Part shown: positions 3,939 through 62,617 of the stretch, in pieces
Layout of the letters: every line of letters begins with the position of its first letter
How positions within the stretch are numbered: position 1 is the stretch's first letter
DNA from: Chloroflexota bacterium
GTDB taxonomy: Bacteria > Chloroflexota > Chloroflexia > Chloroflexales > Roseiflexaceae
Direction: 5' to 3'
DNA: 64,000 nt
NCBI GenBank assembly: GCA_013388755.1
Contig: JACAEQ010000116.1
Location: forward strand, 62,001 to 126,000
The notes under the pieces: model-generated
Database searches by the model: none
The model's input: only the letters and a program-made list of their open reading frames with translations
What the model was told of the DNA's origin: nothing
Made by a program: the position numbers and the translations under genes

Positions 3939-4289
3939 TGCTCGCCTCCCCGGAAGAGTTGCAGTACTCCGCCGGCAGTTGCGCAGTACCAGTGTTGCGC
4001 CAGCAATACCGGGATACAGGTACCTGAGATGCGTACTGTTGCACGTACAGCATGTCGTAACGGTAAGATACGCAAATCCATCATAGCACATGTCTCCACG
4101 CGCGTGCTATGGTGCATCGCAGAACGTTAACGAAATCCCAACTGGTTACGCCTCGACTGCTCAGATGATGTCAAACGACTTCCTGGCGATCGCGTGGTAC
4201 GCCGGCGATGGCCGGCATTGCTGTGACCTGTGCCGGCCATGCCGTCGCATGCCGGCGATCGACCGGGCCGGGTTGCACGAGACAAACAC
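3939..4289. other. Intergenic region with divergent control signals
   Basis: A 351-base gap between the divergent response-regulator and amidase genes. A minus-strand TATGAT (4085-4080) is a candidate -10 for the regulator. Around 4198-4258 there are overlapping GCCGGC/CATGCCG inverted motifs. I see no coding frame with a ribosome binding site. Confidence 0.4.
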
Positions 4290-5561
4290 ATGACCGTTGC
4301 CATCAACACGACCATTCGCTCACCAAACTATGGTTCGCGCGGCGATCGTCCGGTATCCATGATTGTGCTGCATGCGACCGTTGGTTCGGCACGCAGTGCG
4401 CTGGCATGGCTCACAAATCCGTCGGCACGCGTATCGGCGCACTATCTGATCGACAAGGCCGGCCAGATCTTCCGCCTGGTGCCGGACGAACACGCTGCAT
4501 GGCATGCCGGGCGCGCCACATGGCGCGGCGAAACAGCGATTAATGAGGTGTCGCTTGGGATCGAGCTTGAGAATGCCAACAATGGTTCCGACCCGTACCC
4601 TGCGGCACAGATTGATGCTCTGGTATGGTTGACGCGTGAAAAGGTGGCGCAGTACCGCATCGCACCCGACATGGTCGTGCGCCATCTTGATGTCGCGGTG
4701 CCGCGCGGGCGGAAAAGCGATCCGGCCGGATTTCCCTGGGCCAGTTTTCTGCAACAGGTGTTTCCCGAATTGCCCGCCATCAATCCAGACCGTTCGCCGC
4801 GCCCCCGCCCTGCCGACCGCGCCGCGCTGGCCCGGCTGATCCTGGCCGAAGCGTATCGCCAGGTCGGGGCAGTCGAGTGGCCCGATTGGGCGATGACTCG
4901 TCTGGCCCGCACCGCGGGGCTTGGCTTGCCGGTAGCGCCGTCGTTCGATCTGACGGTTGCCGGGCGCAACTATATCGGCCAGTCGTTCGGACGCGAGACC
5001 CTGGCCAGCCCGATTGGCGACTGGCGGCGCGTCGAGCGGCTCGGTACGCTGGTCGCGCCGGAGCAGCAATCGCTACGCGATGCACTATTGCGAGCAGTCT
5101 ACGCGCAGGCGGGTGAGACGTACCGGCCTGACTGGGCCTTTCACCAGTATGCGCTGCGGACGCCGGTCGGGCCGCCGTTAAGCGCCAGTTTCCGTGTACG
5201 CGCCGGCGGCGCCGAGTGGTCAGCGGCAATATACGCGCTCGATACACTCTATAGCCCGGTTGGTCGCTGGCAGGAGGTAGGTCGGCTCAGCGAACTGGCA
5301 ACCCGGCGCGAGCCACATGATCCGCTGGCGCAGGAACTGCTGGAGCGCGTGTACGAACGCGCGGGCAGCCAGTGGCGGCCGGCCTGGCCATCGCAGCAGT
5401 ACGCACTGGAGCAACGGCTCGGCGCGCCGCTCGGGCCAAGTTTCCGTGTGTCGTTTGAAGGGCATGACTATGTCGCCGAAGCATTCGCGCTCGATGTGCT
5501 CTATTGCGTGATCGGCGACTGGGACAATGTCCAGCGCCTGAGCGATCTGCTCAAATCATAG
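4290..5561 (+). CDS. N-acetylmuramoyl-L-alanine amidase with three C-terminal repeats
   Basis: A 423-aa protein whose first ~155 residues are a zinc Amidase_2 (AmpD/PGRP-like) domain. The metal ligands are H28 (VLHATVG), H132 (RHLDVAV) and D144 (KSDPAG), and SLGIELEN holds the conserved Glu. It should cut the MurNAc-L-Ala bond in peptidoglycan. From about 175 to the end there are three tandem ~80-residue units, each beginning with a helix like LLxxVYxxAG, a PDWA/PAWP motif, a SFRV strand, and ending IGDW..V.RLS.L. I cannot name the repeat. No signal peptide is visible, so export is uncertain. The ATG at 4290 fits the domain start; its ribosome binding site is weak. Confidence 0.85.
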   Translation: MTVAINTTIRSPNYGSRGDRPVSMIVLHATVGSARSALAWLTNPSARVSAHYLIDKAGQIFRLVPDEHAAWHAGRATWRGETAINEVSLGIELENANNGSDPYPAAQIDALVWLTREKVAQYRIAPDMVVRHLDVAVPRGRKSDPAGFPWASFLQQVFPELPAINPDRSPRPRPADRAALARLILAEAYRQVGAVEWPDWAMTRLARTAGLGLPVAPSFDLTVAGRNYIGQSFGRETLASPIGDWRRVERLGTLVAPEQQSLRDALLRAVYAQAGETYRPDWAFHQYALRTPVGPPLSASFRVRAGGAEWSAAIYALDTLYSPVGRWQEVGRLSELATRREPHDPLAQELLERVYERAGSQWRPAWPSQQYALEQRLGAPLGPSFRVSFEGHDYVAEAFALDVLYCVIGDWDNVQRLSDLLKS

Positions 5562-5732
5562 CGCTCTTTCAACAACACAGCGCCTGTACCGCGCGTCCTC
5601 GTTCCGTCGCGCTGCTGCATCCCCGCTCGATGCCGTCTGTGTCTCGCCCCGATATGCGACATCATCACATGTGCAGGGACCCGACCAGTGAGCCGGCGTT
5701 CTGGTTGTTCGGCTCACAAGCGAGGAGGCGCA

Positions 5733-7109
5733 ATGTTCATCCCGATCAGTCACAACCATGCCGAAGCCGCCAACTCGTCGGGACGCCGCCTGTTCGGCGC
5801 CACCCGCAGTGTGCGTCATCCGGATGTCGATGCACAGACGCGCCGGCTCGGTGATTATGGCGCGGGCGCATTCCGTACTACGTTGCTCTTGCTCGGCGGA
5901 ATTGAGCTTGCGTGGCGTAGCGCGTCGCCGGGAAACGTACCATTGCTCACGGCGGCATCGTTGCTTGCAGCGACGATGTTGCTGGCCGGCCTGGCCTGGC
6001 GCGCACCATTATGGCTCACGCTGCTTGCCGACGGTGCTGCGGTCATGCTGCTCGTCCTGGCAACCGGGGGAGCCGCGAGTCCGTTTCTGACCCTGATCCT
6101 GGCGCTCATTCTTCAAGGGGGATTGCTCGGCGGTGAGCGCGATGCGGCTGCCGGAGCGGGCGCTGGCCTGGTGGCGTTGCTGCTGATCTCGGTACTCGAT
6201 CCGGCCGGTGTGAACAGTCTGTTGATCGAGATTGCCATGATCCATGCCATCACCAGTATTCTGGCAGTCTGGTGGATTCGCCAGGCGCGCATGGCGCTGG
6301 CGCACCTGCGCGACGATGCAGCGCAGCGTACCCGCGCCGACCAGGACTGGCACGATGCGCGCCGCGCCATCGAGTGGCAGCGTCAGAATCTGGCGGCCCT
6401 GGGCACGTGCAATTCGACCGCCGAACTGTTGCAGCGCGCAGCCGAACGAGCGGCGGCAATCGCCGGCACGCCCGCTACCCCTGATACCGCTCCAGATGGG
6501 GCGCCAGGGGGCTGGCACGTGCTACCGCTGGCAGCTATCGGGCGACTGATTGTTCGCCGCACACCTGCCGAACTGACGCGCCTGCAACGTGATGCGCTCG
6601 ATCACCTGGCGGAGATCGCCCGGCAGCGAGCGGAAGTGTTACGGTCAACCAGCGCGCTGCAGCGACATCACGATGCACTGGCGGCACTCTGGGAAGTCGC
6701 CGGCATGCTGCGCGCGGCGCCCGACCCCGGCCGCGCCGCCACGGAAGCCTGCCGGCGGATCGCAACTGCGCTTGATCTGGACTGGCTGGCGTTCCTCGGG
6801 CTTGATCAGCAGCACACGCTTGCGCCCTTGCTGCTTGTCCGCGGAGGTAGCGCCGGTACGGCGCCGCGTCTGCATGCAGCGCAACTGCGGGTTGCCGCCG
6901 AAGCGCTGCGCGGCGGGCGGTCGCTGGTGCGTGCCGAGCAGGGTAAGACCCTGGCCTGCCTGCCGGTTCGGGTGCAGGGTGAGACATCGTTCGTCCTGGC
7001 GGCACGCGGCATGGTGGATGAGGCTGCACTGCAGGCGCTGCTGATGCTGTTCGGCGATCTGGTTGCGGAACGGCTGGTCGAGGGCTGGAGCCTGGAAGTC
7101 GGGAGGTAA
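5733..7109 (+). CDS. Multi-TM sensor with coiled coil and GAF-like tail, no kinase
   Basis: A 458-aa protein. Residues about 45-185 contain six hydrophobic segments, resembling the membrane part of sensor histidine kinases. A charged, probably helical stretch (about 190-240) and a C-terminal region (about 310-455) that reads like a GAF-type ligand-binding domain follow. There is no DHp, HATPase, GGDEF or other output domain. The start is fixed by GAGGAGG before ATG 5733. It heads the block of six co-directional genes containing the NACHT-TPR and C25-like protease genes, so it is a candidate membrane input or anchor for them. The GAF assignment is by sequence impression and needs profile confirmation. 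Confidence 0.7.
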   Translation: MFIPISHNHAEAANSSGRRLFGATRSVRHPDVDAQTRRLGDYGAGAFRTTLLLLGGIELAWRSASPGNVPLLTAASLLAATMLLAGLAWRAPLWLTLLADGAAVMLLVLATGGAASPFLTLILALILQGGLLGGERDAAAGAGAGLVALLLISVLDPAGVNSLLIEIAMIHAITSILAVWWIRQARMALAHLRDDAAQRTRADQDWHDARRAIEWQRQNLAALGTCNSTAELLQRAAERAAAIAGTPATPDTAPDGAPGGWHVLPLAAIGRLIVRRTPAELTRLQRDALDHLAEIARQRAEVLRSTSALQRHHDALAALWEVAGMLRAAPDPGRAATEACRRIATALDLDWLAFLGLDQQHTLAPLLLVRGGSAGTAPRLHAAQLRVAAEALRGGRSLVRAEQGKTLACLPVRVQGETSFVLAARGMVDEAALQALLMLFGDLVAERLVEGWSLEVGR

Positions 7110-7225
7110 TGCTGCAAACTCGATGGCGTCAAGACGACGAGTGACGCGATGGACCGCGCGGAGTGCAAACGGAGGTCTGGAGGAGACCGCATAACGCTCA
7201 CGCTGAAGCGCCGGGAGTCACATCT

Positions 7226-7543
7226 ATGGCTGAACAGATTCAAATAGGTATGACGGTCATTCTCTTTGTCGCTGGCATCAGCATGCTGATCTGCGGTCTG
7301 GTGATCATTATGACCCGTGAATACCAGGAGGCCATGCGTTCGCTGGCAGGCCAGTCGTCGCGCCTGAGTGGAAAAGCACTGGCCGATATTGGCGTGCAGG
7401 CGGCGCTCGATGGCGCGGCGCACTTGCTTGAGTCAATCACGCGCCTGGTGCAGACGGCAATCGGCACCGGTGCATTCCTCTGCCTGCTCGGCACCATTAT
7501 CTGTGGTCTCGCCTTCTGGATGCTGACCATGGTTCATGGGTGA
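7226..7543 (+). CDS. Small two-TM protein upstream of NACHT-TPR
   Basis: A 105-aa protein starting MAEQIQIGMTVILF. One TM segment is near residues 7-27 and another near 80-102, with an amphipathic 50-residue stretch between (REYQEAMRSLAGQSS...). I chose ATG 7226 because GGGAG lies about eight bases upstream and the first TM then begins naturally. It ends 20 bases before the NACHT-TPR start, which implies co-transcription. No family recognised; the architecture fits a small membrane adaptor or effector, but this is inference from context. Confidence 0.72.
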   Translation: MAEQIQIGMTVILFVAGISMLICGLVIIMTREYQEAMRSLAGQSSRLSGKALADIGVQAALDGAAHLLESITRLVQTAIGTGAFLCLLGTIICGLAFWMLTMVHG

Positions 7544-7563: not shown

Positions 7564-10500
7564 ATGGCAGTACAACTTGCTGGCTGGGCACATAGTTATC
7601 TTGAGGCGCTCTGCGCGCAGCCACGATTTGGCGCAGCGCGCACGGTCGCCCCGCTGTGGCTGGCGACCGACGCCGGTCTGGCCTCCGAGCCGGGCGCTCC
7701 GGTTGCGGCGCCGCTTACCATTCAGATGGCGGCCGAAGTGTTTCCGCGCCTGGTGCTCTCTGGCCCGGCAGGTGCAGGAAAGACAACCACGCTCCGCGCG
7801 CTTGCCGTCGGCCTGGCAGAAGCGCTACTGTCGGGAAATGGGCGGACGGCATGGGGCGGGGCAAGCGCGCCGCTGCCGTTGTATGTCGAACTGGCGCACT
7901 TCCAGGGGAGTATTGAGGCGACTCTTGCGGCCGAGTTCGGCGTTGGCGCGCCACCGCCGATCGATGAACTTGCGCGTGAGCGGCCGCTGCTCTTCATGCT
8001 CGACGGCCTGGATGAACTGCCTGTCGCCGCTCAGCTTGCCAGCCTGGCGGCACTCTCACACACGCTGGCGGCAGCCGGCGCCCAGACGCGCTGGATCGGC
8101 ACATGTCGCAGTGAGCATCTGGGGCTTTTTCGCCCCTGGCTGAATGGCGCCGAAGTGCGGGCGCTCCAGCCGCTCCGCCCGCGCGATGTGACCGCGCTGG
8201 TACAACGCCAGGCTGGCGACACGGCCGCCGCCTGGGTACAGCGCAACGATGAGATTGTGCGCCTGGCCACGCGCCCGCGCTGGCTTGCGGCCCTGCTGGA
8301 TGCGCGCGAGGCACTCACCACTCCTTCGCCGGGCCGTGGCCACTTGCTGGCGACCTGGATGCCCGGCGTTGTGGCGGCGGCGCTCGCGGCGCATCCACGC
8401 GCCGTATCCGTTGCGCAGGCAATCGAGGCGCTGCCGGAAATCGCCGGAGCGCTGGATCAGCTGGGCCAGGAGAGCCTGGCGTTTGATGAGACGATCGCCG
8501 CTATCGAGGTAGGTGAATATGTACCCGGCGCGCAGGCCGCACTTGGCGGCGAGCGCTGGTCGCCGGTTGTCGATCGGCGAACGCTGCGCGCTGCAACCGG
8601 CGAAGCCGCGTTACTGACACTGATTGATGCAGGGATCCTCAGCTTTGATGCAGAGAAGCGTACCGTCACCTTCCGGCACCCGATCCTGCGATCATTTGCA
8701 CAGGCCATGCTCCTGGCGCGTACACGCCCGGAAAGCTGGCCGCCCGCCATCCTTGGCCGCGCCTGGGTTGACGCCGTCATCTTTGCCTACAGCCTGTCCA
8801 CCGACCGTGAGGCCGTCTTGCGACGCCTGCTGGCAAGCGGCGCCGTCGGTCTCACAGCACGCTGCCTGCTCGATGCCGAGGCGCCGTCAAGTTACGACGG
8901 CCTGCTCGAACGCAGCGGCACGTTAACCCCACCGCTGCGTGTCATGCTGGCCGATGCATTTGCCGCCGAGGGCCTCGCGCGCGCTGCACTGGAACAACTG
9001 GAGCGCGCCGGCGCCGAGGGGTACGACGAGGCCGGGTTGTTTGGTCGCCTTGGCGATCTCTACAGCCATGCCAGCCAGTGGCGCCTCGCGCGAGCCGCGT
9101 ATGAACAGGCGCTGGCGCGTGAAGCCGATGACCTGCGCTACCGGCAGCAACTTGGCGTCGTGTGTAGCCGTATGGGCGAACTGGAACAGGCGGCGCTGGC
9201 GCTCGAGGCAGTACTGGACGCGCAGCAAAAGCGATCGGCCGCCGCGGCGCATGAACTGGGCCATGTCTATGTGCAGCAGGGACGGTTCGCGCACGCACTC
9301 GCGGCATATCACCAGGCCGTGCAACAGCAGCCCGGCGAACCGGCCTATCGGCGCAGCATGGCCACCGCGCTGCGGCGCCTTGGCCGCGCTGAGGAAGCCG
9401 AGGCGCAGCTGCGCGAGTTGCTCGCCGAGCACGGCGGTGATGCCGCATCCTATGCCGAACTCGGCGAAGTGTACGCCGAGTCCGGTCGCCCCGCCGAGGC
9501 TGCCGACTGTTATACACGCGCGGTGTCATTGCGACCCGACGACTCGCAGCTCTATGCGCGCCTTGGTCGCCTGCGCCGCGTCCTCGGCGATCTGTCAGGC
9601 GCTCGCGCCGCACTGCAACGCGCCGCAGAAATTGATGCCGCCGACGCGGCCCTGCAGTACGAACTTGGTCAGGTATTCGAAGCGTGCAACGAGGTTGAGA
9701 GCGCGCTGGCCGCCTATCGTTCGGCTGTGGCGCTCGACCCGCGTTGCGACGTGTATCAGCGCCGGCTGGGGGCATTGCTCCGCGATTGTGGCGATGGTGA
9801 TGCCGCAGCAGCGGCGCTGCGCACGGCGCTGGAATTACGTCCAGAGAGCGCCGAAACCTATGGCGAACTTGCCGAGTTGCTCTGGCGCTCGGGTGATCAC
9901 GAACAGGCGCTCGACGCATACCGGCGCGCATATTCGCTTGCGCCGACATCAGCCGATTACGCCCGCGCCCTCGGTCTGGCGTATGGCCGCCTCGGACGCC
10001 TCCGTGACGCGGAGCGGCTGTTGCGCCAGGCGGTGGAACTCGCGCCGGATCGCGCCGAACTGCACTATGACGCCGGAATGGCCACAGAAGCCGTCGAGCA
10101 GTGGGATGTGGCGCTGGCATACTATGAACAGGCGGCAGCGCTTGCCCCTGATCATGCCGAGTATGCTCGTGCCGCCGGTGCGTTGCACTTGCGCTGCGGC
10201 AACGTGAAACGCGCGCGCGCTCTGCTGGCCGTCGCTCTGCGCCATGCCAGGCACGATCCGGAGACACTCTTCCAGCTCGGGATGCTTCATGCGTCCGCCG
10301 GCGCCTGGCGCCTGGCGATTCGCGCACTCCGGCGGGCGACTCGTTCGGGGAATGCGGTACGCTACGAAACGGAACTCGGCCGGGCGCTGCTGCACCTCGG
10401 CCAGGCTGATGAAGCCTGTGCCGCCTTTGAGCGTGCGCTGCACGCGCAACCGGATGATGTCGCCACACTCGACGCGTACAGTGCGGCGCTTGAGGCGCGC

Positions 10501-13500
10501 GGCCGCATGGAAACGGCATATAACGTTGCGCGACACACTGCGCGCCTGGCGCCGGGGGAAGCCACGATCCAGGCGCGCGCCGGCAGTATTGCGCTGCGCC
10601 TGGGGCGGGTCAACGAGGCGCTGGAATTGCTCGATCGCGCGGTTGCGCTCGACTCGCGACTGGTGGACGCCCATATTCATCGTGGCCGGGCACTGTTGCT
10701 GCTTGGCCGGGCGGAGGCTGCCCTGGCCGCGGCTCACCACGCGCGCTCACTGGCGCCTGATCGCGCGCTGCCGTGGGTACTGGCCGGTGAGGCGCTGATT
10801 GCGCTTGATCGCGACCCGGAAGCGCACCCACTGCTTGAACGGGCCGTGGCACTCGACGAATCGCTTCTCCCGGCGCATACCGCATTGCGCGATGTGCTGG
10901 CGCGGGCCGGTGATTATGCTGCCGCGGTCACCGTCGCGTTGCGCGCCGTCGCGCTTGCACCTGGCGATCCCGCGCATCATATGCGGCTTGGCGAGTTGTT
11001 GCTCGAGTCGGACGATCTTGTACGTGCCGAGGAACAGCTTCAGCGTGCCTTACAGCTGGAGGCACAGCACGACAACGAACCGGGGGGCGCGATCAGCGCT
11101 GAATGTCATGCCCTGCTCAGCCGGGTGCGCGCCCGCGCCACCGATTGGGAGCGCGCCATCGAACATGCGCGCACAGCCGTTGCACTCGCGCCGAACGAGG
11201 GAGCGTATCGCGCATTGCTTGCCGCGGCACTCGAAGGTGCGGGCAACCTGGCGGCTGCAATCGCCGAGCTGGAGAATGCTGCCGCGCGCGAGCCGGAGCG
11301 CGCCGACTGGCAACTGCGCCTGGGGCAGTTCTACCGGCGCGCCGGAGATAACGCAATGGCATTGCCGTACCTGCGCCGCGCAGCATCGAGCTCCGGCAAC
11401 GCCGACGACTATCGTCTGCTCGGTATGTGCCTGCGGGCGCTCGATGACCTGCCTGCCGCCGCAGAAGCCTTTGAACAGGCATTGCGGCTGCGCCCGGACG
11501 CCGCCGCCTGGCGCGTGGAACTCGCCGAGGTGCACACGGCGCGTGGCTGGCATGGCGAAGCGCTCGCCGAACTCAACCAGGCGATCACCGCTGCGCCTGG
11601 CCTCGCCGGCATCTGGCGCGCCCGCGCTCGCGCGCAACTGGTTGTCGGCCAGGTGGAAGGCGCGCGTGCCGACCTGGTCGAGGCATTGCGCCGTGATCCG
11701 CGCGACGCCGAAAGTTACGCACTGCTGGCCGGGGTTTTGCTCGATCTTGGTCATCCGGCGCGCGCGCTCGATATTGCGCAGCGAGCCGTGGCGCTGCAAC
11801 CGGAGGTGCCGCAGCATCGCCACGCGCTGGCGCGCGCGTTCCGGGCCAACGGCCGGCGCGCCGAAGCGGTGCAGCAGCTTCTGCGTGCACTTGATGCATC
11901 CAGCCCGGCTCAATGGTGGGCCGACCTGGCCGATGATCACCTGGCGCTGAACGATCTGCCAGCCGCACGCGATGCACTCGAACGCGCCGTCACTGTGGCA
12001 CCCGATGATGCGTCGCTGCATTTCCGCCTGGGTGACGTCCTGGCGCGCCTGGGCGACCTTCCCGCTGCCGCCGGGCACCTACGCGCCGCACTTACCCGCC
12101 GGCCTGGCTATGCCGCAGCTCATGCCCGGCTGGCCGACGTCTTGCTGGCCCAGAACGACAGCACTGCGCCTGGTGTGTACGATGGCGCAGTGGCCGTGCA
12201 TACCATACCTGCGTCCCTCGAACAACAACACGCGACGCTCCCTGACGCGGCAGTGGAAGCTGCGCGCCTGGCCGTGGCGCTCGAAGGGCAATGTGCCGAT
12301 CACTGGCGCGCGCTTGGCGTTGCACTGCGCGCACAGGGGGCGCTGGCCGAAGCGATTGGCGCCTTACGCCGCGCTCACGAGCTTGATCCCGAAGCGCCCC
12401 GGTTCGCATTCCTGCTGGGACTTGCACTGCTCGAACACAGCGATCCAGCCGCTGCGCTCTCACCGCTCTCTGCGGCCGTCACTGCGGCGCCGGAAATCGC
12501 AGCCTATCATGGCTATCTTGGCGTGGCACAACGCGCCATGGTCACGCTCATCACCGATCCCGACGCATTGCGCGCCGTACCTGCCGAACGCCGCACAGCG
12601 CTCGCGCAGGCACGCCGCGCGTTGCAGCAGGCAACCACCATCGAACCGAAGAATGCGCGCTGGTGGTACGAGCTCGGCCTGGTTGAGCAACAGGCAGCCT
12701 GCCATCCTGCAGCGGTCGAAGCTTTCGATCGCGCGCTGGAACTGGAGCACGAAGGCGGGGAGACACCGGGCGAACATGGTGTGGCACAGGAAGACATCGT
12801 GCGCTCTCGCGCACTCTCCCGCTACCTGCTCGACCGCGCCGATGACGCGCGCGCCGATCTGGAGACGCTGGTCCAGATCGGCGCGGCCCGGCCGGCTGAC
12901 CGGTACCTGCTGGGACGCGTGCTGCTCGACCTTGGTGATGCTGCGGCTGCACGCGCTGAACTGTCGGCTGCAATGGCCGACCCGACGCATGCACCGGCCA
13001 GGCTGCTCCTCGGGCGGGCACACCTGGCGCTGGGCGAGACGCACGAAGCGATCGCCGCCATGGAACAGGCCGCCGATCTGCGGCCGGATCATGCGCCAAC
13101 CGCGGCAGCGCTCAGTGAAGCGTATGCTGCCGCCGGGCGCCACGAGCGCGCAATTGCTGCCGCACAGCGTGCCGTGCGACTCGACGCCGCCGCTGCCGGG
13201 CATCACCAGTTGCTGGCAACCCTCTATGCCGTCAGTGGTCGCTTCCACGAGGCACGCGCCGCGCTCATTAACGCGATGACCCTGCAACCGAACGTTGCCG
13301 CCTGGCACGCCCAGATGGGCGAGATTTGCCTGCAGATGGGCATGCACGATGCAGCGCGCAGCGCCTATGCGCGCGCGGTGCAACTTGCACCCGATGATGG
13401 CACCTATCGCTATGCACAGGCGCAATTGCTCGCCCGCCAGGGACGAGCTGGCGAGGCGCGTCAGGCGCTCGAACACGCTATCATGCTCGAACCTGACCGC

Positions 13501-14400
13501 GGCGCATGGCATTATGAACTCGCCGAAGTCTTGCAACGACAGCGCGATCCGGCAGCACTCGATCAATACATCGCCGCAGTCCAGCTTGCACCTGATGAGC
13601 CGCGCCACTGGCTCGGCCTGGCAGGCGCATTCCTCGCCCGGGGCGAGCATGACACGGCCCGGGAAACGGCGGAACGCGCACTCCTGCGCTTTGGCGATGA
13701 TCCGGCGCTGCATACGATCGTCGGGGCGATGCTCGAAGAGGAGGGGGATCCTGCCGGCGCAGCGTGGCACTATGAGATCGCGCTCGAACGTGCGCCGCAA
13801 CACGCCGAGCACTGGTGGCGACTGGGGCGGGTGCAACTTGATCTTGGCGATATGAATCGCGCTCGTGAACTCCTTGAGCGTGCCCTGAGCCTGGACGCCG
13901 ATTCGCCCGAGGCTCATGCGGCACTGGCACGGCTCTTCGCACGCCAGAACGATGGCCGCGCTGCGCTGATCCACAGCCAGCGCGCCGCCGAATTGTGCCC
14001 CGATGAACCGGCCTTCCAGATCCAACTCGCTGAAGCTTTTGCCTACCTGCGGCGCTTCGATGAGGCGCGCCAGGCGCTGGAGCGTGCCGTGCAGCAGGCG
14101 CCCGCCGACGCGGAATTGCTGGCGCGCTACGGCGAGATGGCCCTGGCCGTCGGGTTGCATCACGAGGCGCTGGGGGCATTTGAACGAGCCATTGACCGGA
14201 ATCCCGACGAACCGCGTTACCACTTCCTTGCTGGCCGGGCGCACCGCCGCATGAAGCACTATAGCCGGGCGATTGAACGTTTCCGCCGGGCGGTCAAGCT
14301 GCGCCCGGGCTACAGTGAGGCGATTATTGAACTGAGCACGCTCGGCCCACTGGCGTTTGTCGCGCAACACCTGCGCGGCGAAGGCGACGTTGCAGCATAA
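7564..14400 (+). CDS. Giant NACHT NTPase-TPR protein (2278 aa)
   Basis: The N-terminal ~400 residues are a STAND/NACHT-type NTPase: Walker A GPAGAGKT at 67-74, Walker B with the NACHT-typical DGLDEL at 147-152, then a sensor-1-like WIGTCRSEH and a helical/winged-helix section. From about residue 455 to the end the protein is tandem TPR, roughly fifty 34-residue units (recurring YxxLGxxxxxxG...A...Y..A..L.P). Such proteins act as ligand-gated switches in bacterial immunity or signalling: the repeats sense and the NTPase oligomerises. AAGGA precedes ATG 7564. Neighbours downstream are a 30-aa peptide and a TPR/C25-like protease. Length is at the extreme upper end for bacterial STAND proteins. 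Confidence 0.9.
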   Translation: MAVQLAGWAHSYLEALCAQPRFGAARTVAPLWLATDAGLASEPGAPVAAPLTIQMAAEVFPRLVLSGPAGAGKTTTLRALAVGLAEALLSGNGRTAWGGASAPLPLYVELAHFQGSIEATLAAEFGVGAPPPIDELARERPLLFMLDGLDELPVAAQLASLAALSHTLAAAGAQTRWIGTCRSEHLGLFRPWLNGAEVRALQPLRPRDVTALVQRQAGDTAAAWVQRNDEIVRLATRPRWLAALLDAREALTTPSPGRGHLLATWMPGVVAAALAAHPRAVSVAQAIEALPEIAGALDQLGQESLAFDETIAAIEVGEYVPGAQAALGGERWSPVVDRRTLRAATGEAALLTLIDAGILSFDAEKRTVTFRHPILRSFAQAMLLARTRPESWPPAILGRAWVDAVIFAYSLSTDREAVLRRLLASGAVGLTARCLLDAEAPSSYDGLLERSGTLTPPLRVMLADAFAAEGLARAALEQLERAGAEGYDEAGLFGRLGDLYSHASQWRLARAAYEQALAREADDLRYRQQLGVVCSRMGELEQAALALEAVLDAQQKRSAAAAHELGHVYVQQGRFAHALAAYHQAVQQQPGEPAYRRSMATALRRLGRAEEAEAQLRELLAEHGGDAASYAELGEVYAESGRPAEAADCYTRAVSLRPDDSQLYARLGRLRRVLGDLSGARAALQRAAEIDAADAALQYELGQVFEACNEVESALAAYRSAVALDPRCDVYQRRLGALLRDCGDGDAAAAALRTALELRPESAETYGELAELLWRSGDHEQALDAYRRAYSLAPTSADYARALGLAYGRLGRLRDAERLLRQAVELAPDRAELHYDAGMATEAVEQWDVALAYYEQAAALAPDHAEYARAAGALHLRCGNVKRARALLAVALRHARHDPETLFQLGMLHASAGAWRLAIRALRRATRSGNAVRYETELGRALLHLGQADEACAAFERALHAQPDDVATLDAYSAALEARGRMETAYNVARHTARLAPGEATIQARAGSIALRLGRVNEALELLDRAVALDSRLVDAHIHRGRALLLLGRAEAALAAAHHARSLAPDRALPWVLAGEALIALDRDPEAHPLLERAVALDESLLPAHTALRDVLARAGDYAAAVTVALRAVALAPGDPAHHMRLGELLLESDDLVRAEEQLQRALQLEAQHDNEPGGAISAECHALLSRVRARATDWERAIEHARTAVALAPNEGAYRALLAAALEGAGNLAAAIAELENAAAREPERADWQLRLGQFYRRAGDNAMALPYLRRAASSSGNADDYRLLGMCLRALDDLPAAAEAFEQALRLRPDAAAWRVELAEVHTARGWHGEALAELNQAITAAPGLAGIWRARARAQLVVGQVEGARADLVEALRRDPRDAESYALLAGVLLDLGHPARALDIAQRAVALQPEVPQHRHALARAFRANGRRAEAVQQLLRALDASSPAQWWADLADDHLALNDLPAARDALERAVTVAPDDASLHFRLGDVLARLGDLPAAAGHLRAALTRRPGYAAAHARLADVLLAQNDSTAPGVYDGAVAVHTIPASLEQQHATLPDAAVEAARLAVALEGQCADHWRALGVALRAQGALAEAIGALRRAHELDPEAPRFAFLLGLALLEHSDPAAALSPLSAAVTAAPEIAAYHGYLGVAQRAMVTLITDPDALRAVPAERRTALAQARRALQQATTIEPKNARWWYELGLVEQQAACHPAAVEAFDRALELEHEGGETPGEHGVAQEDIVRSRALSRYLLDRADDARADLETLVQIGAARPADRYLLGRVLLDLGDAAAARAELSAAMADPTHAPARLLLGRAHLALGETHEAIAAMEQAADLRPDHAPTAAALSEAYAAAGRHERAIAAAQRAVRLDAAAAGHHQLLATLYAVSGRFHEARAALINAMTLQPNVAAWHAQMGEICLQMGMHDAARSAYARAVQLAPDDGTYRYAQAQLLARQGRAGEARQALEHAIMLEPDRGAWHYELAEVLQRQRDPAALDQYIAAVQLAPDEPRHWLGLAGAFLARGEHDTARETAERALLRFGDDPALHTIVGAMLEEEGDPAGAAWHYEIALERAPQHAEHWWRLGRVQLDLGDMNRARELLERALSLDADSPEAHAALARLFARQNDGRAALIHSQRAAELCPDEPAFQIQLAEAFAYLRRFDEARQALERAVQQAPADAELLARYGEMALAVGLHHEALGAFERAIDRNPDEPRYHFLAGRAHRRMKHYSRAIERFRRAVKLRPGYSEAIIELSTLGPLAFVAQHLRGEGDVAA

Positions 14401-14434
14401 GCGCGCGGCGCAATCGTTGCAATGGAGGAGATCC

Positions 14435-14527
14435 ATGGTGTCACATATTCAGATCTGCGATGTCCCGTTTCCTAATCCACACCCCCCCGATCCGGAGCCG
14501 GATCCGCCGCCGGATTGGAGTGCCTGA
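14435..14527 (+). CDS. 30-aa proline-rich micropeptide
   Basis: A complete short frame beginning MVSHIQICDVPFP and ending in an acidic proline-rich tail (repeated PDPEP/PDPPPDW) before TGA at 14525-14527. It has one of the strongest ribosome binding sites in the region: GGAGGAGA at 14424-14431, three bases before the ATG. It sits between the NACHT-TPR gene and the protease gene. Its 30 codons alternate D and P in a way unlikely for random sequence. No homologue recognised. Possible roles: protease substrate, leader or regulator, or a ligand for the TPR array. A leader-peptide role without protein function remains possible. Confidence 0.6.
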   Translation: MVSHIQICDVPFPNPHPPDPEPDPPPDWSA

Positions 14528-14571
14528 TCAGGAACATTCACGTCCATCGTGACGAACTGGAAAGGACCGGC

Positions 14572-17193
14572 ATGACCACCACGGTTAAGCCGCTGCCGGC
14601 TACGGTTGACGCCGAGCAGGTGCGCAGCGCCATCGAGCTTGCACTACGCCTGGGTGATCCGGGTGCTGCCTGGCGCGCAACGCATGCGTTATTACGGGCG
14701 TTCCCTGATGCCGTCGTACCCCGGGTGCTGCTGGGCCAGGCATTGCTCGACGCCGGCAATGCGCCGGTGGCGGTTGACTATTTTCGGCGCGCACTGCGTC
14801 TCAATCCATTCGATGCGGTGGCCTGGGGTGGCCTTGCCGGCGCCCTGGCGCGAACCGGCCAGCAGAGCGCGGCGGCGGCGACGCTGAGTCGCGCCGTATT
14901 CCACGACCCGCTCGGCAGTGAAGCGCTTGCCCCCGGCGTTGCCGACGGGCCACCCTTAGCTGGTCTCGGCGTGGTCTACCTTCGCCGCGGTCATGCCGAC
15001 CTGGCGGTAGCCGAACTGGCCGTCGCGCTGGAACGCTATCCGCATCGTGATGACCTGCGCCTCTATTACATCGAAGCGCTGCGCCGCAGTGGTGACCTCG
15101 CCGCCGCCCGCCATCATGGAGCGCTGGTTGCGCCGGCATACGCTGAGCGCCTGCCGGCGTTGCTCGTTCGCGCAGCACTTGATGATCACGCCGTCACTGT
15201 GCGCAGACGTTGCGCGGAACTTGACCCCGATGGGCGCCTGACGCGCCGCTTCTTCGCGCCTGAACGCCCACCCTGGCCCATCCCGCCTCCGCCGCTCGTG
15301 CGCTGGTCGGAGGAGTTCGAACCAGTTGGCGCATACCTGCCACTTGCTTCGGGGCAAAAGGCACAGGCGCTCGGGAGCAACCATGATGCCGGCGAGCCTG
15401 CGCTGCCCATCCAGAAGCGGGCCGTGGGCACACCGCAGGCCACGCACGGTGCCGGGTGGCAGGGTGAGAACCGGCAACATGCCTCTCGACCCGCTCCACA
15501 TGATGATGCAGGTGCACGGCAGAGAACAACCGGCGATCTGCCCGATCATGCACTCAAGGATTTCATCGCCGCAACCGAGCAGGTTCGCCATCGTCTCGCC
15601 GATATTGGCGCGGCGCCGCGGCCTCTTGTTCCATGGGCCGACGGGCAGGCGTTCACGCAAGTGGTGCTCTCATCGCGGGCGGAACTACAGCGTCGCCTCG
15701 GCGCAGACGGCTTCGCTGCGGTTGATCGCCGCCTGCAACAGTATGCCCAGGCGTTGCGCCGGCGCGGCCTGGCTGCGCATATCTGCTACTGTGACGATGA
15801 GGCCTCATTACGGCTCGATGACGGGATCATGGCGGAGCCGGTGCGCGGCGATGCCGGCGGTCTGCGCGACCTGGTGCGAACACTTTCCGGCGCGCTCGCC
15901 GAACATGGTCGTGAGCTTGGCGCTGTGCTCATCGTCGGCGGTGACGAGGTCGTGCCATTCCACCGGCTGCCAAACCCGATCCCGGACGACGATGTGGTGG
16001 TGCTTTCCGACAACCCCTACGCGAGCGATGATCCGGGATACCTGGTGCCGCAACGGATTGTCGCGCGCCTGCCGGAAGGCGATGGCGGCGACTCATCTCT
16101 CCTGCTTGCCCAGCTCGACCGGCTGACGGCATACCACTACGGCAGTCGTCCGCGAACGCGCGCGTCGCGCTCGCCGATATCGCTGCCAGGGCTGCGCCAG
16201 CCGCACCCGATCGCAACGATGGACACGCTGAGCGCCGGCTATTGCGCCGAGATCTGGCACGAGACTTCGCGTGCCGTTCTCGATGCGCTTGCACCGGCAG
16301 CCCCACTCCGGTCGAGCCCGCCGCTCCATGCGGCCAATCTCGACCTGCGCGACCTGGGTGGCAGGCGGCTGCTCTACATGAACCTCCATGGCGCCGCTGG
16401 CCTGCCCAACTTCTATGGCCAGCCGGATGCCGTCTGGCCTGGTGCAGCGACGCGCCTGCCGGTCGCATTGCGGCCCGATCAGGTTGACGCTGACCTGGTG
16501 GATGGGGCGCTGTTGCTGAGTGAGGCGTGTTACGGCGTCGAACTGGCCGGCCGCACGGCCAGAACATCCATCCCATTGCGGGCGCTGGCAAGTGGCGCGC
16601 TGGCAGTGGTCGGCGCAACCGTCAATGCATACGGCAGCCTGGCGACTCCCCTGATCGGCGCCGATCTCCTCTTCCAGCGCATGCTGGCACATCTCGCGCG
16701 GGGGGTGCCAGTGGGCCGTGCATTGCACCAGGCGCGCATCGAGTTTGCGCAAGAGATGTATCGCCGCCAGGGGTTCCTCGATGATGTTGACATCAAGACA
16801 TTGATCGAGTTCGTATTGCTCGGCGATCCGTGGGGAGCGACGCATGAGCCAGTCGCTGCGTCCAGATCCTGGCGTGAGGAACGGACAATCGTGGCAGTCG
16901 AACGGATGCCGAAGCCACGTCCCAAAGCAGTACTCGACGAGACCGAGGCGCCGCGCGAGGCGCTCCGTCGCGCGCGCGATATTTTGCGCCGGGTCCTGCC
17001 AGGCGCTGCGGCGTTGCCGTTGCGTATCACCGCGCAGATCAACCCGCGTCGCCAGCGCAAGAGTGATCCGGAGCGCGACCTGACGTTCAGTGCGCGCGAA
17101 AGCCGTCCCACAGCCGATGGTCACTACCTGGCCCATGCCGCCCACATCACCATCAGCGGCGAAGCTGTGGTCAAAGTAGCAATGACCCGATAA
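14572..17193 (+). CDS. TPR protein with C25-like (caspase-fold) peptidase domain
   Basis: An 873-aa protein. Residues about 10-230 are TPR-like helices; about 230-330 is a charged/proline linker. The C-terminal part (about 340-790) reads like a gingipain-type C25/caspase-fold peptidase: strand-and-turn VLIVGGDEVVPFHRLPNP, then SDNPYA, catalytic His606 in MNLHGAAG, catalytic Cys653 in LSEACYG, and the closing LLGDPWG motif. A CHAT-type assignment is the nearest alternative. No signal peptide, so it should act in the cytoplasm, unlike secreted gingipains. ATG 14572 has AAAGGA upstream. The gene follows NACHT-TPR and the 30-aa peptide and probably supplies the proteolytic output. Confidence 0.8.
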   Translation: MTTTVKPLPATVDAEQVRSAIELALRLGDPGAAWRATHALLRAFPDAVVPRVLLGQALLDAGNAPVAVDYFRRALRLNPFDAVAWGGLAGALARTGQQSAAAATLSRAVFHDPLGSEALAPGVADGPPLAGLGVVYLRRGHADLAVAELAVALERYPHRDDLRLYYIEALRRSGDLAAARHHGALVAPAYAERLPALLVRAALDDHAVTVRRRCAELDPDGRLTRRFFAPERPPWPIPPPPLVRWSEEFEPVGAYLPLASGQKAQALGSNHDAGEPALPIQKRAVGTPQATHGAGWQGENRQHASRPAPHDDAGARQRTTGDLPDHALKDFIAATEQVRHRLADIGAAPRPLVPWADGQAFTQVVLSSRAELQRRLGADGFAAVDRRLQQYAQALRRRGLAAHICYCDDEASLRLDDGIMAEPVRGDAGGLRDLVRTLSGALAEHGRELGAVLIVGGDEVVPFHRLPNPIPDDDVVVLSDNPYASDDPGYLVPQRIVARLPEGDGGDSSLLLAQLDRLTAYHYGSRPRTRASRSPISLPGLRQPHPIATMDTLSAGYCAEIWHETSRAVLDALAPAAPLRSSPPLHAANLDLRDLGGRRLLYMNLHGAAGLPNFYGQPDAVWPGAATRLPVALRPDQVDADLVDGALLLSEACYGVELAGRTARTSIPLRALASGALAVVGATVNAYGSLATPLIGADLLFQRMLAHLARGVPVGRALHQARIEFAQEMYRRQGFLDDVDIKTLIEFVLLGDPWGATHEPVAASRSWREERTIVAVERMPKPRPKAVLDETEAPREALRRARDILRRVLPGAAALPLRITAQINPRRQRKSDPERDLTFSARESRPTADGHYLAHAAHITISGEAVVKVAMTR

Positions 17194-21702: not shown

Positions 21703-23241
21703 ATGCCGTTCCGTACACTCCTGATCTTGCCGCTCGTCCTGCTCCTCTCCCCTGTCGCTCCCAGCGATCCGCGTCTCGACGATCAATGGGCGCTGCGCCG
21801 GGTTGGCGCCTCGTGCGCCTGGGATCGTACGACAGGTAGCGCGAACGTCCTGGTGGCGATCATTGACAGCGGTGTTGATCTGACTCATCCCGATCTTGCC
21901 GGCCGCCTGCGTGCCGATGGCTACGATTTTGTTGACAATGACGACGATCCGCGTGACGAGAACGGCCACGGCACCCACGTCGCCGGAATCATTGCCGCCA
22001 CACTTGATAATGAGGAAGGCATCGCCGGCCTGGCGCCGGGGGTGATGATTCTGCCAGTGCGGGTGATGAATGCGCGCGGTAAAGGCTCCGATTTCTCGAT
22101 TGCCCGTGGTATTCGCTTCGCCGCGGATCGCGGGGCACAGGTGATCAATCTCAGCCTCGGCGCAACACTGATGGTCAGTGCCGACTCGTCATCCCCTGAG
22201 GTCAATGATGCGTTGCGCTACGCCCAGGATCGCGGGGCGCTTATTGTCGTGGCAGCAGGGAACGACTATGTTCCACTGCCGAATGCTATCGCCGTTGATA
22301 ACCCCGATGTTCTGGTGGTTGCGGCGACCGACTCGCGCGATCGCAAGGCCGACTTTTCCAACTCCGGCCCGTGGGTTGGCGTAAGTGCGCCCGGCGTGCA
22401 GATCCTCTCGACCATGCCAACCTACGAGGTGTTTCTGACCAGCGATCGCGTGCCGCGCGACGAGCGTTTCCGTAATGGATACGACTATATGAGCGGCACC
22501 TCACAGGCAGCGCCGTATGTCGCAGCGCTGGCGGCGCTGCTTTTTTCGGCCCACCCGGAATGGGACGCCGCGCGGGTCGCGCAGGAGATCCGCGCCGCTG
22601 CAACGGATATCCGCAGCATCAACCCGGAACTGCAACTCGGCGCCGGACGCATGGATGCGTGCAAGTCGCTTGGTGGCCCGCCGGCAGCCGAGGTGCAACC
22701 GCCACGACTCCCTTCGTCGTCGCTCAATGAGGCATTCTTCGGTTTGCTGGCGCTGGCTGCGTGTGGAGTCACCCTGATCCTCATCCTGCTGGTGATCGGG
22801 CTGGCCATTGGCGGGCGCCGGCGGGCGCCCCGCCCGGCGCCGGCACCGGCGCCAGTCTATGTTCCGCCGCCATCGCCAGTTCGGCCGCAACCCTACCAGC
22901 CAGTCGTACCGCCGGCACCGCAACCAGCCCCTGCCCCGGCAGCACCAGGCGCCTGGGGCTCCCTCACCGTGATCGCCGGTCCCGCTCAGCAGCGCAACTA
23001 CCCGCTCATTGGCGTTGAAACGTTGATCGGGCGCAGCGAAGAATGCCAGATCGTGCTAATCGGCGATGGAACGATCTCACGTCGCCATGCCATCGTCCGT
23101 AACGATGGCCGTCAGGTGACGGTCGAAGATGCCGGCAGCAGCCACGGCAGCTACCTGAATGGTCAGCGCGTGACCCGGCCAGTGCCGGTGCGTCGCGGTG
23201 ATGTCTTGCAGGTCGGGCAGAGCCAGTTGCGGTTCGATTGA
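21703..23241 (+). CDS. Membrane subtilase (S8) fused to an FHA domain
   Basis: A 512-aa fusion. After a signal peptide (LLILPLVLLLSPVAP) comes a complete S8 serine protease domain with catalytic D55 (IIDSGVD), H89 (NGHGTHVAG), and S267 (MSGTSQAAP). A TM helix lies at about 345-370 (LALAACGVTLILILLVIGL). A proline-rich linker follows, then a C-terminal FHA domain (about 420-512) with GRS at the phosphothreonine loop, SRRH and NG motifs. The topology places the protease outside and the phosphopeptide reader inside. It could therefore be governed by Ser/Thr kinases such as the one at 44407. The ATG is weakly preceded by a ribosome binding site. Confidence 0.92.
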   Translation: MPFRTLLILPLVLLLSPVAPSDPRLDDQWALRRVGASCAWDRTTGSANVLVAIIDSGVDLTHPDLAGRLRADGYDFVDNDDDPRDENGHGTHVAGIIAATLDNEEGIAGLAPGVMILPVRVMNARGKGSDFSIARGIRFAADRGAQVINLSLGATLMVSADSSSPEVNDALRYAQDRGALIVVAAGNDYVPLPNAIAVDNPDVLVVAATDSRDRKADFSNSGPWVGVSAPGVQILSTMPTYEVFLTSDRVPRDERFRNGYDYMSGTSQAAPYVAALAALLFSAHPEWDAARVAQEIRAAATDIRSINPELQLGAGRMDACKSLGGPPAAEVQPPRLPSSSLNEAFFGLLALAACGVTLILILLVIGLAIGGRRRAPRPAPAPAPVYVPPPSPVRPQPYQPVVPPAPQPAPAPAAPGAWGSLTVIAGPAQQRNYPLIGVETLIGRSEECQIVLIGDGTISRRHAIVRNDGRQVTVEDAGSSHGSYLNGQRVTRPVPVRRGDVLQVGQSQLRFD

Positions 23242-60256: not shown

Positions 60257-62617
60257 TTGAACTACCAGCGCGCATTTGCTAGCCGACTTCGATCCCTGTC
60301 GATCGCTGGTCTGGACGAGTCAGGTATCCTCAACCTGCCGCTCATGGAGATCTACGTTGAACGTAGCATCTCCAGCGATTATGCGTCTACTGGCGCCGGC
60401 GAACAACTGTCGCTGGCGGATCTTGCGCGTGAGCCGCGCGCACGCCTGGTGCTGGAAGGCCGCGCCGGAAGCGGTAAGAGCATCGTGTTGCGACGTCTGG
60501 CGCTGGTGTGTGCCGCCGCGGTTACCGGCGATCCCGATGGTGCAGCGATGCCACTCTCTGACTGGCCGGCGCCCATCCCGCTACCGATCTTTCTTGACTT
60601 CTCCGCAGGTACGGCAGTGCCTGACCCGGCGACCGATTCGTGGGCGCTCATTGATGCCCGGCTCGCAGCACACGATCTGGCCGCATATGCCCCCGTGGTG
60701 CACCAGGCGTTACACGCCGGCGAAGCGCTGCTGATCCTCGATGGCGTGGCTGGCGGTTCCGTGGCCGTTGTTGATCGTCTGGTCGCAACATTTCCTGGCA
60801 ACCGCTTTGTCATCTCCTGCCGCACATGCAATGATCCATTGCTGCAGCGCCACGGCTTCCGGCGGCTGCGCCTGATTGACCTCGACCGCGCACATATTGA
60901 TGACATGGTGGCTCGTCTGCTGACGGCGATCAGCCGGCGGCGCGTCACGCGCGATCCCGCGCCGCCACTGAATGACCGGATTGCGGATCTGCAGGGTCGC
61001 CTGCTGCTGGACGACGGTCTTCGTGCACTGACCGCCGAGCCACTCGCGCTGGCGATCGCAGTTGTCACCGATATTGGCGGGCATACGTTACCTGGCGCGC
61101 GTGCCGTGGTCTATCAGCGTTTCATTGATACGCTCTGGAGCAATGTTGAAGCTGCGCCGCCAGCGGCGCTTGGCCCGCTGGCGCTGGCATTTCATATGGC
61201 CATGGCCGATGGCGCCCGCGAAAGCATATTGCCGCACGCAGATGTCATGGCACAGCTCCGTGCCGGGCTCGCCGGTGCCGACGACGCCACTATTGCCAGG
61301 GTACTCGATCATGCGCTGGTTATCGGGTTGCTGGAACAGGTGCATGGCGCCAGCGGCGATGACACCCTGTACAGGATGCCACGCGCACCATTGCGCACGT
61401 TCCTCGCCGCAAGCGTGCTGGCGCGCGCCGATGACTTCGCGACACGCGTCCCCGTTCTTAGCGGCGACCCCGCCTGGCGCGAGGCGCTGATGTTTGCCGT
61501 CTGGCAACGTGAAGGCGCAATGTCGGGGACGGCCGCGCCACTGCTCCACCACCTGCTGATCAGGGAACAATCGGTCAATGACGCGAGCCGGCCAGCAACG
61601 GCCCGTGCCGCTGTGACCCGCCCGGCGCCTGCGACACCACGAATGCCGGCTGCAGTACCGGCGCACAACACTGTTCTGCTCGTGGCTGCGTGCCTGGAGG
61701 CGCTGGCCGGTGCAATTGATGACCAGGCGTTGACCAGCGCGGTGCGGCAGCAACTGCTGGCGATCATGACCGATCAGGAGGTCGCTGCGCCGGACCGGGT
61801 GCATGCCGGCCTGGCGCTTGGCCGTCTGGGCGATCCGCGCTTCGCCGACCTGATGCCGCCGCTGGCCCGGATTGACGCTGGTGTCTTCGTCCTGGGAAAC
61901 AATACGCCGGGCTATGATGATGAAGGGCCAGCACAACGCGTTGACCTGCCGGCCTTCCAGATCGGTATCTACCCGGTGACCAACTACGAATATGGGCGTT
62001 TTCTCGCGGCCCACCCTTCACATCCGCGGCCACGCTACTGGTTCGATCCGCGCTTTAATGGCCCGTCACAACCGGTTGTCGGCGTGACCTGTCATGAAGC
62101 CTCGGCCTATGCTGCATGGCTGAGCCGGCAACTTGCCGCGGCCGGCCGGTTGCCGGCCGGTATGGTTGTCCGTCTGCCGCTGGAGAGTGAATGGGAAAAA
62201 GCCGCTGCCTGGGGGCCGCGCGCGCGCCGGGCGCGGCGCTTTCCATGGGGCGATCGCTGGGAAACCGGCCTGGCGAATATCGCAGAGACCCGCACCGGAC
62301 CTGATGGGCACGCGCGCTGGGCAACGACGCCGGTCGGATGCTTCGCCGGCGGCGCGAGCCTCTATGGTGTCCACGACCTGATAGGCAATGTCTGGGAATG
62401 GACGGCCAGCGAGTATGCCAGTTACCCCGGGGCGCCGGTGCCGTTTCTCCAGCGCCAGAGCTATGTGCTGCGCGGATCGTCATTCAATTCGACGGCTATC
62501 AACGCGCGCGCCAGTTATCGCGGCAGTCACCTCCCACCCCAGTACTGGCGCTACAACCTTGGCTTTCGAATTGTCATCGGCCGGCCGCTTCCGCAACGAG
62601 TCGACGAAGATTCCTAG
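60257..62617 (+). CDS. NACHT NTPase fused to an FGE-sulfatase domain
   Basis: A 786-aa STAND-type protein. The N-terminus ends with LPLMEIYVERS, typical of the linker before NACHT. Walker A is GRAGSGKS (K74) and Walker B is LLILDGVAGG, where the second acidic patch (DEL) of NACHT is degraded. A helical region (to about 530) leads into a complete formylglycine-generating-enzyme fold (about 535-780): GIYPVTNYEYGRF, RLPLESEWEKAA, NVWEWTASEY, LGFRI. The catalytic Cys of true FGE appears replaced (ARASYR), so the domain probably binds rather than oxidises. The start is TTG 60257, the only candidate after the upstream stop; its ribosome binding site is poor. Confidence 0.88.
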   Translation: MNYQRAFASRLRSLSIAGLDESGILNLPLMEIYVERSISSDYASTGAGEQLSLADLAREPRARLVLEGRAGSGKSIVLRRLALVCAAAVTGDPDGAAMPLSDWPAPIPLPIFLDFSAGTAVPDPATDSWALIDARLAAHDLAAYAPVVHQALHAGEALLILDGVAGGSVAVVDRLVATFPGNRFVISCRTCNDPLLQRHGFRRLRLIDLDRAHIDDMVARLLTAISRRRVTRDPAPPLNDRIADLQGRLLLDDGLRALTAEPLALAIAVVTDIGGHTLPGARAVVYQRFIDTLWSNVEAAPPAALGPLALAFHMAMADGARESILPHADVMAQLRAGLAGADDATIARVLDHALVIGLLEQVHGASGDDTLYRMPRAPLRTFLAASVLARADDFATRVPVLSGDPAWREALMFAVWQREGAMSGTAAPLLHHLLIREQSVNDASRPATARAAVTRPAPATPRMPAAVPAHNTVLLVAACLEALAGAIDDQALTSAVRQQLLAIMTDQEVAAPDRVHAGLALGRLGDPRFADLMPPLARIDAGVFVLGNNTPGYDDEGPAQRVDLPAFQIGIYPVTNYEYGRFLAAHPSHPRPRYWFDPRFNGPSQPVVGVTCHEASAYAAWLSRQLAAAGRLPAGMVVRLPLESEWEKAAAWGPRARRARRFPWGDRWETGLANIAETRTGPDGHARWATTPVGCFAGGASLYGVHDLIGNVWEWTASEYASYPGAPVPFLQRQSYVLRGSSFNSTAINARASYRGSHLPPQYWRYNLGFRIVIGRPLPQRVDEDS

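Follow-up and report, generated by a model that had tools for sequence, protein, structure and literature searches.

The window, a 64,000-nucleotide stretch of DNA from a Chloroflexota bacterium, contains a micro-protein gene located between the gene for a NACHT-TPR protein and the gene for a putative TPR-containing cysteine protease. The genes and features of this operon, all on the forward strand, are as follows.

4230-5561, +: Amidase_2-type amidase (PF01510, E=1.6e-32), syntenic in genomes G009 and G012
5688-7109, +: protein of unknown function with no Pfam match, syntenic in g1, g4, g3 and g8 genomes
7163-7543, +: small membrane-type protein, DUF7139 (PF23600) at its cut-off, a conserved operon member
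7564-14400, +: 2278-aa putative sensor, NACHT NTPase and very long TPR array (Pfam)
14424-14431, +: ribosome-binding site GGAGGAGA of the micro-protein (sequence)
14435-14527, +: micro-protein gene, 30 aa, MVSHIQICDVPFPNPHPPDPEPDPPPDWSA (translation; homologues in six other genomes; purifying selection)
14462-14518, +: conserved core VPFPNPHPPDPEPDPPPDW of the micro-protein, 19 codons, the same in five distinct free-standing homologues
14572-17193, +: TPR and C25-like cysteine protease, putative, 873 aa (N-terminal TPR matches; orthologue and motif evidence)

The NACHT domain (PF05729, E=6.8e-8) covers residues 63-215 of the 2278-aa protein, and many TPR matches are found across the rest of it. 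The order of the gene of unknown function, DUF7139, NACHT-TPR and protease recurs, whole or in part, in genomes of the order. Genomes of several families have a DUF7139 orthologue ahead of the NACHT gene, and several genomes of the window's family carry a glycosyltransferase gene after the operon. A search of plasmids found no match for the protease, and in PADLOC the NACHT-TPR protein gets weak matches only and the protease none. The operon looks vertically inherited and does not resemble a mobile defence cassette. At its upstream end, the C-terminal part of the amidase matches relatives at shifted positions, suggesting internal repeats.

The window protease itself has no match to PF01364 (Peptidase_C25) or to other Pfam peptidase families, and its putative placement in the C25 (gingipain-type) line comes from its orthologues and motifs. 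The orthologue L048 matches PF01364 with E=1.2e-15 (58 bits, cut-off 23), and its domain is 35% identical to the aligned window domain. The window protein carries the motifs NLHG...YGQ and SEACYG, and the corresponding His motif N[LV]HG and Cys motif SE[AC]C[YF]G are found in all 19 protease orthologues. The protease is nearer to C25 than to CHAT (PF12770), for which the best member reaches only E=0.08. Solved structures, searched with a profile of the catalytic domain, yielded nothing useful.

Coding status of the micro-protein frame

The micro-protein frame runs from the ATG at 14435 to the TGA at 14527, within the 171-base gap between the NACHT-TPR stop at 14400 and the protease ATG at 14572, which has its own ribosome-binding site, AAAGGA (14561-14566). 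The initial annotation had described a 30-aa frame between these two genes with a ribosome-binding site three bases before its ATG, and our coordinates and translation agree with it, as does the spacing of GGAGGAGA, which is exactly three. The same frame is also listed as a 56-aa ORF with a TTG start inside the upstream NACHT gene. A sequence search finds one copy of the micro-protein in the window's genome, and searches of Pfam, NCBIfam and PADLOC give no match for it. By itself, a frame of 30 aa would be unremarkable in a gap of 171 bases; it is the comparison of relatives that takes this one beyond chance.

When 158 genomes of the class were searched with a profile, seven gave strong matches, the window's own genome among them. 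The other six all belong to the same family and carry the homologue in the same place (E from 1e-9 to 2e-15). Five of these six are free-standing and one, in G005, is fused to the protease; as G009 and G019 are identical over the interval, the free-standing copies amount to five distinct sequences (window, G009, G003, G012 and G017). Each free-standing copy lies behind a ribosome-binding site and stops two residues past a Trp, so that start, ribosome-binding site and stop are kept in 5 of 5 distinct copies; the final residues differ (SA, NA, NI or TM). Purine-rich AGGAG-type sites stand ahead of the same ATG in G003, G009, G012, G017 and G005, and the fused copy in G005, with start and ribosome-binding site present, reads on into the protease. 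In G017, the ribosome-binding site and the frame are intact although repeat-like DNA flanks the micro-protein gene on both sides.

Across the five distinct free-standing sequences, the numbers of variable sites at the first, second and third codon positions of the 19-codon core are 0, 0 and 13. The window and G009 differ by 11 base changes in the core with no amino-acid change, and when an equal number of changes was randomised, 0 of 200,000 trials left the amino acids unchanged. The spacers on either side are non-alignable, and the core stands as a conserved island between them. These comparisons make it near certain that 14435-14527 on the forward strand is a real protein-coding micro-protein gene under purifying selection, with predicted translation. 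The purifying selection proposed as a check in the initial annotation is seen at 13 of 13 variable sites, the frameshifts or stops that it named as refuting were looked for in close relatives and the frame survived, and its reading as a real peptide gene emerges stronger than stated.

Several other interpretations of these data were rejected. The third-position pattern alone would also fit an antisense Gly/Ser-rich ORF, which is equally degenerate, but its end is not conserved, in contrast to the ATG, ribosome-binding site and stop codon of the plus-strand frame. A frameshift extension of the NACHT gene was also considered. In the window and in G009, the peptide and the NACHT end lie in different frames; in G003 and G012 they share a frame, but the peptide comes after a stop. 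The weak profile matches elsewhere in the class (E 0.006-0.9) were not accepted as homologues: sampled loci were scanned for P/D-rich stretches, and those inspected resembled chance frames. We note that in G017 (L034, about 1550-2180) the repeat-like DNA consists of GCGCCTTTGCG... and GTTCGTGCAAGCCCC...GGGGCTTC on either side of the micro-protein gene.

Relationship between the micro-protein and the protease

In G005 (L033), the micro-protein is fused in frame and forms the protease N-terminus, MITATSHPATPFPDPHPPDPGPEPPPWDTTDAVQLRRV..., in which the core is recognisable as TPFPDPHPPDPGPEPPPW. The junction is located immediately before the first TPR helix of the protease. This fusion comes from one metagenome assembly, and a sequencing slip is unlikely because there is a single stop-free reading frame and the intergenic DNA is absent. 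Synteny and the in-frame fusion together support a link to the protease. The protease is present in every genome with the micro-protein, and a genome of the same genus (G015, 99% complete) has neither. The comparison shows that, within one bacterial family, the micro-protein is inherited together with the NACHT-TPR/protease operon. As judged from the genomes compared, it is confined to that family, and conservation of the operon extends across the order. The majority of orthologous proteases in the order lack such a peptide, so the peptide is a family-specific addition and not an essential part of the enzyme. The micro-protein is probably a partner of the neighbouring protease, and its most likely predicted role is that of a small regulatory partner. 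A likeness between the micro-protein and the protease's own linker APERPPWPIPPPPLVRW was given no weight, as the linker pattern is also found in peptide-free clades.

The core contains no Arg or Lys, its bonds are mostly X-Pro, and nearly all of its acidic residues stand before Pro; in the free-standing core, the sole acidic residue without a following Pro is in an Asp-Trp bond. Such a core is expected to be stiff, acidic and proline-rich, of the polyproline-II (PPII) type. Enzymes of the C25 family are known to cut after Arg or Lys. With no Arg or Lys and with acidic residues nearly all before Pro, the core should be poorly cleaved by a C25 enzyme of this Arg/Lys type, and a non-cleavable strap or a tether fits better.

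Possible roles of the micro-protein

The reading we tentatively prefer, while granting that the alternatives together carry at least as much weight, is that the micro-protein is a detached N-terminal segment of the TPR-C25 protease, a strap that would hold the enzyme inactive or in position for as long as the NACHT-TPR protein has not acted. The core of the free peptide would bind the protease in trans, most likely in the TPR groove or at the junction of the TPR and catalytic domains. The bound peptide would be non-cleavable, because X-Pro bonds resist cleavage and no Arg or Lys is offered, and it may inhibit the protease by holding it inactive or in position, as securin does for separase. Once activated, the NACHT-TPR protein, whose TPR array is far larger, would then capture the peptide or push it aside and so set the protease free.

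Structure prediction and sequence comparison were used to look at TPR binding. In an AlphaFold2 model of the full G005 fusion, the peptide has a pLDDT of about 20-35 and is not docked (four aligned rows, one peptide-bearing). The mean pLDDT of this model is 42.5, and it is poor because only four sequences were eligible for alignment. When the peptide was modelled with the TPR domain alone, the domain was well folded (pLDDT mostly 75-95) and the peptide was undocked (pLDDT 31-52), again with a shallow alignment in which one of four rows holds the peptide, which makes this a weak test of docking in either direction. The TPR domains of peptide-bearing and peptide-free proteins show no distinctive difference in charge or aromatic pattern, and specificity-determining residues in the domain amount to three uninformative candidates only. 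A conserved free C-terminal motif, as expected of a carboxylate-clamp ligand, is absent. As the final residues differ between copies and the peptide of G005 has its C-terminus inside the fused protein, a free C-terminus is not needed, which argues against a Hop-like (Hop/EEVD) carboxylate clamp. Proline-rich peptides in PPII form are known ligands of TPR folds (PMC12433258). The PSB domain of collagen prolyl 4-hydroxylase is a precedent of this kind, for binding only, as the system is unrelated.

It is also possible, though we would not expect it, that the micro-protein is a tether or scaffold, a two-sided linear motif that bridges the NACHT TPR array and the protease TPR domain and recruits the protease without inhibiting it. 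Its gene is placed between the genes of two TPR proteins, and a 19-residue core is long enough for two contacts. A similar segment may also sit on the sensor side in g3 genomes (G002, G008), where the NACHT-TPR protein has a conserved, acidic and DP-rich tail at its C-terminus, DDEPE[ED]PYDPIDERP, with 2, 3 and 9 nucleotide differences at the first, second and third codon positions. Against this, the undocked peptide in the fold test with the TPR domain counts to the extent that its shallow alignment allows. We note that this DP-rich C-terminal tail (L040, L041) occurs in a genus without a separate peptide; we regard it as a lead, a candidate likeness to the micro-protein rather than evidence of homology.

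The initial annotation had suggested a substrate, an activator or a TPR ligand, and this interpretation is partly supported: the micro-protein may be an activator or a TPR ligand, but the lack of Arg and Lys and the pre-Pro position of most acidic residues disfavour a substrate. On the substrate reading, the protease would cut the peptide and a fragment would act as a signal or toxin, as has been proposed for the FxSxx, RxD and acidic peptides of actinobacterial peptide-processing systems, and a small conserved peptide, a protease and an NTPase-TPR protein in one operon do match the parts list of Kaur et al. 2020 (PMC7159879). We consider it improbable: the core offers mostly X-Pro bonds, and just one acidic residue, that of the Asp-Trp bond, lacks a following Pro; neither a metallopeptidase nor a radical-SAM gene is seen in the operon; and the fused copy would need self-cleavage.

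A translational device is very improbable. Proline runs stall ribosomes, and a short ORF directly upstream of the protease could be a leader in which proline stalling tunes protease expression; 16 bases (CCGCCGCCGGATTGGA) are indeed identical in four aligned free-standing genomes. However, the fusion in G005 puts the peptide inside the protein, the conserved residues include D, E, H, N, F and W rather than prolines alone, several hundred bases separate the gene from the protease in G017, and scans for terminators, promoters and Rfam families were empty. Finally, short frames are common in high-GC DNA and 126 frames of at least 25 aa overlap 12 kb here, but a chance open frame or annotation artefact is a negligible prospect given the third-position-only variation, the conserved start, ribosome-binding site and stop, the homologues in six other genomes and the in-frame fusion.

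Comparison with known systems

The nearest described kind is the ternary conflict peptide-processing module. In VMAP- and FtsH-ternary conflict systems, Kaur et al. 2020 described peptide-processing modules with FxSxx, RxD and acidic peptides (PMC7159879). As in these modules, a small conserved peptide gene lies beside the genes of a peptidase and of an NTPase with C-terminal TPRs, and in both cases the hosts are bacteria with a multicellular habit. The ternary conflict modules have a metallopeptidase, a fast-diverging precursor with a C-terminal motif, an AP-ATPase and often a radical-SAM enzyme, whereas the operon here has a C25-type cysteine protease, an invariant proline-rich core, a NACHT NTPase and a natural protease fusion. 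The micro-protein has no FxSxx, RxD or run of four contiguous acidic residues, the adjacent protease is of the cysteine type and not zincin-like, and no maturation enzyme is seen in the operon (amidase, protein of unknown function, DUF7139, NACHT-TPR, protease). With a cysteine protease in place of a metallopeptidase and no such precursor motif, we do not file the system under these modules.

Securin is an extended pseudosubstrate that holds separase, a TPR-like and caspase-like protease (PMC10317155; PMC6858450). The eukaryotic pair resembles the present one in having an extended disordered partner and a protease with TPR-like helical repeats and a caspase-like domain. It differs in that securin is much longer and has no sequence relation to the micro-protein; the likeness is one of logic, with inhibition here suggested by analogy. 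A bacterial securin-separase analogue, in which the 30-aa micro-protein holds the TPR-C25 protease inactive and the NACHT-TPR sensor removes or captures it, with intermediates still visible, is a doubtful but specific proposal. If it were true, the intermediates in living genomes would be the free peptide, the protease fusion and possibly the DP-rich sensor tail. TPR-CHAT (Craspase, type III-E CRISPR) is similar in that it joins TPRs to a caspase-like cysteine protease under the control of a second protein. Here, in contrast, the partners are a NACHT-TPR protein and a 30-aa peptide, and the protease is nearer to C25 than to CHAT.

Little is known of how NLR-like (NACHT-TPR) proteins of bacteria activate separate protease effectors. 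A peptide that is tiny, invariant and synthesizable, lies between sensor and protease and occurs in nature as a fusion to one of the two gives a handle on this question, as binding, inhibition and release may be approachable using two purified proteins together with a peptide of 19 residues. The comparison of relatives also allows short genes without a Pfam, NCBIfam or PADLOC match to be recognised as real in such operons.

Two other genes of the window are worth recording. The product of the gene at 21703-23241 (+) joins a subtilase (PF00082) with an FHA domain (PF00498), which is an uncommon combination. The protein encoded at 60257-62617 (+), with an FGE-sulfatase/FGS domain (PF03781) and a weak nSTAND NTPase match, recalls published bacterial conflict-system proteins.
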